Origin: Ridgeia piscesae
Lineage: Eukaryota > Annelida > Polychaeta > Sabellida > Siboglinidae
Assembly: GCA_025642075.2 (NCBI GenBank)
Contig: JAODUO010000627.1
Span: 190,974-254,973 of the forward strand
Reading direction: 5' to 3'
Length of the DNA stretch: 64,000 nucleotides
The translations under genes were made by a program, and so were the position numbers. Each line of letters opens with the position of its first letter. The stretch's first letter is position 1. Below are positions 15,901-55,918 of the stretch, piece after piece. The notes under the pieces are model-generated. The model was not told the origin of the DNA. It ran no database searches and saw only the letters and a program-made list of their open reading frames with translations.

Positions 15901-18900
15901 AGTTGAACTTGGCCACAGTTGAACTTGGCCACAGTGTGAACTTGGCCACTGTGTGAACTTGGCCACAGTGTGAACTTGGCCACACTGTGAACTTGGCCAC
16001 TGTGTGAACTTGGCCACAGTGTGAACTTGGCCACTGTGTGAACTTGGCCACTGTGTGAACTTGGCCACAGTATGAACTTGGCCACTGTGTGAACTTGGCC
16101 ACAGCGTGAACTTGGCCACTGTGTGAACTTGGCCACAGTGTGAACTTGGCCACTGTGTGAACTTTGTCACTGTGTGAACTTGGCCACAGTATGAACTTGG
16201 CCACTGTGTGAACTTGGCCACAGTATGAACTTGGCCACAGTGTGAACTTGGCCACAGTGTGAACTTGGCCACTGTGTGAACTTGGCCACAGTGTGAACTT
16301 GGCCACAGTATGAACTTGGCCACTGTGTGAACTTGGCCACAGTGTGAACTTGGCCACTGTGTGAACTTGGCCACAGTATGAACTTGGCCACTGTGTGAAC
16401 TTGGCCACAGTATGAACTTGGCCACAGTGTGAACTTGGCCACTGTGTGAACTTGGCCACAGTGTGAACTTGGCCACAGTGTGAACTTGGCCACTGTGTGA
16501 ACTTGGCCACTGTGTGAACTTGGCCACAGTGTGAACTTGGCCACAGTATGAACTTGGCCACTGTGTGAACTTGGCCACACTGTGAACTTGGCCACAGTAT
16601 GAACTTGGCCACAGTATGAACTTGGCCACTGTGTGAACTTGGCCACAGTATGAACTTGGCCACAGTGTGAACTTGGCCACTGTGTGAACTTGGCCACTGT
16701 GTGAACTTGGCCACAGTTGAACTTGGCCACTGTGTGAACTTGGCCCACCCCCGTGTGAACTTGGCCACTGTGTGAACTTGGCCACAGTGTGAACTTGGCC
16801 ACAGTATGAACTTGGCCACGTGTGAACTTGGCCACACTGTGAACTTGGCCACTGTGTGAACTTGGCCACTGTGTGAACTTGGCCACAGTATGAACTTGGC
16901 CACTGTGTGAACTTGGCCACTGTGTGAACTTGGCCACTGTGTGAACTTGGCCACAGTGTGAACTTGGCCACAGTATGAACTTGGCCACACTGTGAACTTG
17001 GCCACTGTGTGAACTTGGCCACACTGTGAACTTGGCCACAGTATGAACTTGGCCACAGTATGAACTTGGCCACTGTGTGAACTTGGCCACTGTGTGAACT
17101 TGGCCACAGTGTGAACTTGGCCACTGTGTGAACTTGGCCACAGTGTGAACTTGGCCACACTGTGAACTTGGCCACTGTGTGAACTTGGCCACAGTGTGAA
17201 CTTGGCCACTGTGTGAACTTGGCCAACTGTGTGAACTTGGCCACTGTGTGAACTTGGCCACAGTATGAACTTGGCCACACTGTGAACTTGGCCACTGTGT
17301 GAACTTGGCCACAGTGTGAACTTGGCCACTGTGTGAACTTGGCAACAGTGTGAACTTGGCCACTGTGTGAACTTGGCCACAGTGTGAACTTGGCCACACT
17401 GTGAACTTGGCCACTGTGTGAACTTGGCCACACTGTGAACTTGGCCACTGTGTGAACTTGGCCACAGTGTGAACTTGGCCACAATAGAAACTTTGCCAAT
17501 AGAGATTCTAACAACACATTGTGTGACAACACAAGTGAGAAAATAACAACATTATTAAGTGGCCGTTTACATTGTCTCCGGGCAATAACTTACATAGTCA
17601 GTTAACACATTTCTAATACTTTTATGTGTTCTTGTGACAGGTGGTGCATACAATGATAGTCAGTCTCTCTCTGCTGTCTCATTGTCAGTCTCAGAGCCAG
17701 GTAGTTGTCTCTCTCCAGCTGCACAGTCTACCGTCATTACCATGGTAAGACACAAACACAGTCTACCGTCATTACCATGGTAAGACACAAACACAGTCTA
17801 CCGTCATTACCATGGTAAGACACAAACACAGTCTACCGTCATTACCATGGTAAGACACAAACACAGTCTACCGTCATTACCATGGTAAGACACAAACACA
17901 GTCTACCGTCATTACCATGGTAAGACACAAACACAGTCTACCGTCATTACCATGGTAAGACACAAACACAGTCTACCGTCATTACCATGGTAAGACACAA
18001 ACACAGTCTACCGTCATTACCATGGTAAGACACAAACACAGTCTACCGTCATTACCATGGTAAGACACAAACACAGTCTACCGTCATTACCATGGTAAGA
18101 CACAAACACAGTCTACCGTCATTACCATGGTAAGACACAAACACAGTCTACCGTCATTACCATGGTAAGACACAAACACAGTCTACCGTCATTACCATGG
18201 TAAGACACAAACACAGTCTACCGTCATTACCATGGTAAGACACAAACACAGTCTACCGTCATTACCATGGTAAGACACAAACACAGTCTACCGTCATTAC
18301 CATGGTAAGACACAAACACAGTCTACCGTCATTACCATGGTAAGACACAAACACAGTCTACCTCATTACCATGGTAAGACACAAACACAGTCTATCCTCA
18401 TTACCATGGTAAGACACAAACACAGTCTATCCTCATTACCATGGTAAGACACAAACACAGTCTATCCTCATTACCATGGTAAGACACAAACACAGTCTAT
18501 CCTCATTACCATGGTAAGACACAAACACAGTCTATCCTCATTACCATGGTAAGACACAAACAGTTTACCCTCATTACCATGGTAATTAAGACACAAACAC
18601 GGTCTACCCTCATTAACATCATCACATCATAGTAACACCTTATCATCATAGTCTAGGTCACCACAGTAACATTTTATCATCATAGTCTAGGTCACCACGG
18701 TAACATCCTATCATCATAGTCTAGGTCACCACAGTAACATCTTATCATACTCTAGGTCACCACAGTAACATCTTATCATCACGGCCTAGGTCACCACAGT
18801 AACATCTTATCATCACAGTCTAGGTCACCACAGTAACATCTTATCATCACAGTCTAGGTCACCACAGTAACATCTTATCATCACAGTCTAGGTCACCACA

Positions 18901-55130: not shown

Positions 55131-55918
55131 CCTCACTTCCTCCTCACCAACGCAACAGACCTCGACTCAGTCGTGGAAGAATAACCTCACTTCCTCCTCG
55201 CCAACGCAACAGACCTCGACTCAGTCGTGGAAGAATAACCTCACTTCCTCCTCACCAACGCAACAGACCTCGACTCAGTCGTGGAAGAATAACCTCACTT
55301 CCTCCTCGCCAACGCAACAGACCTCGACTCAGTCGTGGAAGAATAACCTCACTTCCTCCTCACCAACGCAACAGACCTCGACTCAGTCGTGGAAGAATAA
55401 CCTCACTTCCTCCTCACCAACGCAACAGACCTCGACTCAGTCGTGGAAGAATAACCTCACTTCCTCCTCACCAACGCAACAGACCTCGACTCAGTCGTGG
55501 AAGAATAACCTCACTTCCTCCTCACCAACGCAACAGACCTCGACTCAGTCGTGGAAGAATAACCTCACTTCCTCCTCACCAACGCAACAGACCTCGACTC
55601 AGTCGTGGAAGAATAACCTCACTTCCTCCTCACCAACGCAACAGACCTCGACTCAGTCGTGGAAGAAAAACCTCACTTCCTCCTCGCCAACGCAACAGAC
55701 CTCGACTCAGTCGTGGAAGAATAACCTCACTTCCTCCTCGCCAACGCAACAGACCTCGACTCAGTCGTGGAAGAATAACCTCACTTCCTCCTCGCCAACG
55801 CAACAGACCTCGACTCAGTCGTGGAAGAATAATCTCACTTCCTCCTCGCCAACGCAAGAGACCTCGACTCAGTCATGGAAGAATAACCTCACTTCCTCCT
55901 CACCAATGCAACAATTTT
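55131..55918 (+). repeat. 54-bp array copied from the last coding exon (3' UTR)
   Basis: About 14.5 copies of a 54-bp unit whose sequence is the exon 21 end: CTTCCTCCTCACCAACGCAA, CAGACCTCGACTCAGTCGTG, GAAGAATAA. Being 18 codons long, every copy is in frame with exon 21 and ends in its own TAA. One copy, near 55664-55670, has GAAGAAAAA, so its stop is lost. Copies are nearly identical to one another and slightly different from exon 21 (TACTTCCTCCGC). Confidence 0.96.

Follow-up and report, generated by a model that had tools for sequence, protein, structure and literature searches.

Minisatellites across six gene boundaries of MCMDC2 in the annelid Ridgeia piscesae, a probable case of mirage-type repeats outside lancelets

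Introduction

In the MCMDC2 gene of the siboglinid annelid Ridgeia piscesae, six gene boundaries lie inside a minisatellite: the splice donors of exons 4, 13 and 16, the acceptors of exons 9 and 17, and the stop-codon end of exon 21 (Table 1). These arrays are probably minisatellites of the mirage type, that is, ordinary tandem repeats whose founding unit straddled a gene boundary by chance. Mirages is the name given, in the accessible parts of two reports, to tandem repeats that cross exon-intron boundaries in the lancelet genes for Adh3, globins, TnC and PGBD5 (PMC3087553, PMC3902484). The initial annotation of the window, the whole stretch of 64,000 nucleotides analysed here, was thus wrong in holding that no system of this kind had been described. 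The MCMDC2 arrays add a new animal group to the mirage-type cases and stand out for the presence of six in one gene. With an annelid as host, minisatellites across gene boundaries are not confined to lancelets, and the six arrays constitute a natural test of splice choice among at least 25 identical sites.

Table 1. MCMDC2 and its boundary arrays, with positions counted from the first nucleotide of the window
Feature	Positions	Strand	Description
MCMDC2 gene, start to stop codon	3787..55130	+	21 coding exons; based on GT-AG introns, frame, homologs and Pfam
Exon 4	17641..17744	+	last 23 bases are the exonic portion of the 35-bp unit
Exon 4 donor array	17722..18619	+	35-bp unit (23 exonic + 12 intronic), 25.6 copies, donor present 25 times
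Intron 8 array reaching exon 9 acceptor	23509..25416	+	23/46/48-bp units; nearly the whole intron
Exon 13 donor array	33077..33417	+	20-bp unit (10 exonic + 10 intronic), 17.1 copies
Exon 16 donor array	37490..38316	+	33-bp unit (12 exonic bases), 25.1 copies
Exon 17 acceptor array	39493..42166	+	37-bp unit, 72 copies
Array near exon 18 acceptor (control)	42504..44931	+	34-bp unit; ends 3 bp short, without the junction
Exon 21 stop-codon-end array	55081..55913	+	54-bp unit, 15.4 copies

Gene model and homologs

In the rebuilt gene model all 20 introns are of the GT-AG type and the frame is continuous over 688 codons plus a stop. The limits drafted at an earlier stage for exons 5 and 6 were ruled out by the frame of the Lamellibrachia protein, which also showed an additional exon drafted at 19616-19670 to be spurious. 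The query in the homology, Pfam and PDB searches was the 694-aa draft and not the final 688-aa model. Among 7994 scored candidates, the protein search with this draft yielded just two matches, the MCMDC2 proteins of Lamellibrachia satsuma, a siboglinid annelid (76% identical across 78% of the draft), and of Lineus longissimus (40% over 98%), and a second query with residues 570-668 retrieved the same Lamellibrachia protein only (89%). The Pfam domains MCM and MCM_lid scored above cut-off in the draft. Support for exons 1-4 comes from the Lineus alignment, the Lamellibrachia record apparently being without these exons. The start of the Lamellibrachia satsuma protein resembles the end of intron 4 read through the acceptor, and the record therefore probably lacks exons 1-4.

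Two other features of the gene were noted. In exon 11, positions 29395-29464 hold a 33-bp segment duplicated in tandem and in frame (2.1 copies, 91%) that apparently exists as one copy in Lamellibrachia, so coding sequence has also been reached by tandem growth. A LINE remnant resembling reverse transcriptase was recognized by eye in intron 20 (53660-54230).

Exon bases within the repeat units

All of the boundary arrays are among the 64 rows reported by TRF. The exonic content of their units was evaluated in several ways. When exon bases were compared in register with the repeat period, the match was 23/23 at the donor of exon 4, 9/10 at that of exon 13 and 12/12 at that of exon 16, while 48 of 54 bases matched at the stop end of exon 21 and 6 of 8 at the acceptor of exon 17; the exon 9 value was left out as misregistered, with 16/23 matching even within the array. 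In a second test, each copy was anchored on its splice site and judged against 1000 draws of random k-mers from the MCMDC2 coding sequence, taking only the copies that matched a search pattern (33, 67, 23, 9, 21 and 12 for exons 9, 17, 4, 13, 16 and 21, respectively). The three donors and the stop end gave P <=0.004 up to 12 bases. At the acceptor of exon 9 the best copy matched 7/8 (P 0.003), with P 0.013 and 0.012 at 10 and 12 bases, and at that of exon 17 the matches were 7/8, 8/10 and 10/12 (P 0.003, 0.005 and 0.001). The control array located before the exon 18 acceptor had no exonic match in this same test (P 0.74-0.89). Finally, a register-free local alignment from which the junction copy was removed, and which left out exon 21, was significant for exons 4 and 16 (0/300 shuffles) and not for exons 13 (0.17), 17 (0.37) and 9 (0.70).

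The acceptor cases are the weak ones, with about 8 exonic bp each, short yet above chance in register. The array ends given by TRF itself, 25410 and 42163, overlap exons 9 and 17 by only 2 and 5 bp, which makes these two the weakest cases; at exon 9 the end was set by hand about 8 bp into the exon, and at exon 17 about 8 exonic bases are counted by register. A unit spanning the exon-intron boundary, as in lancelet mirages, is clear at the donors of exons 4, 13 and 16 and short at the acceptors of exons 9 and 17. Taken together, the in-register and splice-site-aligned matches bear out the proposal of the initial annotation that each of the six arrays contains a gene boundary. Its unit lengths of 35, 20, 33, ~49, 37 and 54 bp were also as found, the periods reported by TRF for the exon 9 array being mixed (23, 46 and 48).

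Similarity among the six units was assessed in all 15 pairs, and the lowest P, 0.005, was not significant after correction for 15 tests. Since the units are no more alike than expected by chance, the arrays would represent separate events; they look unrelated in sequence and appear to have arisen independently, in agreement with what had been claimed at the outset.

Origin of the arrays and choice of splice site

The copy that touches the exon carries coding sequence also present in relatives. In Lamellibrachia, the peptides encoded by the exonic bases at exons 16 and 21 are single and unrepeated, and the same is true of the exon 4 peptide in Lineus, which indicates that the exon came first and that the arrays derive from the exons. 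The full 688-aa frame, together with homologs devoid of the repeats, upholds the earlier statement that the real junction lies in the copy adjacent to the exon. The protein itself is terminated by a stop codon in the first copy of the exon 21 array. Each array would have been founded by a short duplication across the boundary and then enlarged on the intronic or 3' UTR side by slippage, unequal exchange or gene conversion. It may have been tolerated as long as splicing stayed with the exon-side copy, the remaining copies presumably staying intronic even though most of them bear the same splice signal.

The donors of exons 4, 13 and 16 differ in what the use of a later copy would entail. The exon 4 array presents 25 copies of one donor, each with 7/9 consensus bases, so that position and not strength must decide among them. 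Read-through to the next donor would extend exon 4 by 1 codon and exon 13 by 5 codons before reaching a stop. The exon 16 array is open in the frame of the exon and encodes 18 perfect 11-aa repeats, making a longer protein possible if a later donor were used. The donor of exon 16 is the lowest-scoring of the 20 donors, with 4/9 consensus bases, and its use in vivo is accordingly less certain.

Uniformity along the arrays was analyzed in 18 of them, those of introns 3 and 8 in part, four arrays of the placement test described below being left out. In arrays with the exon at their 5' end, rho was -0.80 for exon 4, -0.54 for exon 16 and -0.59 for exon 21, and in those with the exon at their 3' end it was +0.30 for exon 17 and +0.43 for exon 18. 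These five were significantly most uniform beside the exon, out of seven in contact with an exon or directly next to one, versus one of the 11 others (P 0.013); significance was lacking for the exon 13 array and for that of intron 8, whose sign was opposite. Under two other groupings of the arrays the contrast gave P 0.057 and 0.12, and the exon-side gradient in uniformity is suggestive only. One reading of such a gradient is that the exon edge serves as an anchor, the constrained exon-side copy being a master that re-makes its neighbours and leaves arrays uniform by the exon and decaying into the intron; we regard this as conceivable but unlikely.

Comparison with known systems

Like the MCMDC2 arrays, the lancelet mirages span boundaries on the donor or the acceptor side, contain copies with splice signals and have the authentic junction in the exon-side copy, as far as the accessible text of the reports goes. 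Within it, the globin mirage genes are BflGb6 and BflGb9 and the Adh3 units measure 10-72 bp (PMC3087553, PMC3902484), splicing is reportedly undisturbed and array length variable (PMC3087553), and mirages are considered as possible founders of new introns (PMC3087553, PMC3902484). The MCMDC2 arrays differ in their annelid host, in being six in one gene and in the location of one of them at a stop codon. Moreover, the same text describes RT-PCR of the lancelet transcripts and variation in array length, whereas the MCMDC2 arrays are known from the sequence of one assembly. The host lies outside the lancelets, in which mirages were described, the closest protein being that of an annelid at 76% identity. 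Occurrence in lancelets is a matter of host range and not of mechanism, and the assignment therefore rests on mechanism and anatomy.

A minisatellite with multiple splice donor sites is also reported from the human gene 6-16 (IFI6; Turri 1995). It resembles the donor arrays of MCMDC2 in that a minisatellite supplies repeated donors; several of these are reportedly used in 6-16 transcripts, whereas at exons 4 and 13 of MCMDC2 a downstream donor would add a stop. Among the matches listed in the literature search, with most subscription papers outside its scope, no boundary-spanning tandem repeat outside lancelets appeared besides human 6-16, and no annelid case. Large intronic tandem repeats in annelid genes are shared with the metallothionein genes of earthworms, which have minisatellites in intron 1 and duplications of the fourth exon that were not seen in the transcript; unlike the case of MCMDC2, the accessible part of that report describes no junction-spanning units, and its monomers average ~180 bp (PMC12783039).

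Placement of the arrays and alternative explanations

The introns of MCMDC2 harbor 20 minisatellite arrays, each 100 bp or longer, distributed over 14 of the 20 introns, which together with two microsatellite tracts occupy 35,686 of 49,277 intron bases (~72%). Arrays at a distance from junctions are equally common, and the region grows arrays generally. For the placement test, each array was collapsed to one unit and re-placed within its own intron, a procedure that offers a fair genome-wide way to ask whether junctions attract repeats. The set comprised 20 arrays with period >=9 and length >=100 bp, obtained by merging TRF rows by hand, and left out shorter rows, the two microsatellite tracts and the 3' UTR array. 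In the first two runs the ends at exons 9 and 17 were hand-set 8 bp into the exon, and the third run used the TRF ends. Five arrays span a junction versus 2.5 expected (P 0.061), or four versus 1.75 without intron 8 (P 0.077), and strict overlap gives three versus 2.2 (P 0.37). In two 17-array subsets, of long arrays and of long periods, the count is five versus 2.3-2.5 (P 0.041 and 0.038). An earlier version of the test had yielded five versus 3.1 (P 0.15), 2.55 (P 0.078) and 2.35 (P 0.055), and three versus 2.25 (P 0.39), and the TRF ends yielded five versus 2.8-2.9 (P 0.085-0.094) and three versus 2.4 (P 0.44).

The initial annotation had suggested a bias in where tandem growth starts or is tolerated, and one form of it would be a preference for splice junctions as starting points, caused for example by breaks linked to transcription or by the junction sequence itself, which would make the junction a hotspot. 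What stood of this suggestion is that more array edges than expected lie close to exons: of the 28 that face an exon, 11 are within 25 bp of a junction versus 4.5 expected (P 0.0006, or 0.0022 without intron 8), but the 25-bp threshold was chosen post hoc and the P value becomes 0.034 at 10 bp and 0.048 at 50 bp. The spanning arrays themselves exceed expectation modestly, five versus 2.3-3.1 with P 0.04-0.15 depending on the rule (0.06-0.15 when all arrays are counted), and the strictest overlap gives three versus 2.2-2.4 (P 0.37-0.44), which does not establish a bias, because 72% of the intron sequence is array. Furthermore, the sample is one gene, picked for being striking. A positional bias is thus possible from this gene, and a hotspot at the junction quite unlikely. 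The edge excess is not predicted by purely random seeding and would follow from loss of unique intron DNA except near splice sites.

That copies were collapsed or invented during assembly might be suspected from a pure run of 796 G (10938-11733) in the neighbouring 17-bp array of intron 3, which looks like a sequencing or assembly fault; however, the coding frame is intact across 21 exons, copies of several arrays display ordered, shared variants and gradients, and poly-G of ~0.5 kb is also mentioned in the accessible part of a report on an earthworm BAC (PMC12783039), all of which makes an artefact highly improbable. That some introns arose from tandemly duplicated exon sequence, an origin suggested for lancelet globins, is likewise very unlikely. 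Intron 8 would be the case in question, since it (23490-25408) has only 19 bp outside its array and the joined sequence of exons 8 and 9 aligns to the array over 20 columns (P 0.010 uncorrected), but this value is not significant after correction for 12 arrays with three tests each, and intron 8 is unremarkable in its exon-end/intron-end signature, 34% of mismatched pairs doing equally well. When this signature and the intron-start/exon-start one were computed for all 20 introns, those with junction arrays did not stand out; intron 6 alone did (0.5% of mismatched pairs, in one of 20 tests). A founding unit straddling the boundary by chance is retained as the probable origin of the six arrays.

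Two minor observations concern other tandem repeats of the window. At the donor of exon 19, positions 52741-52772 are spanned by a 13-bp unit in 2.5 copies, possibly a young junction array or a chance occurrence in GT-rich sequence. Outside the gene, TRF reports a 376-bp tandem duplication, 93% alike, at 61512-62243.
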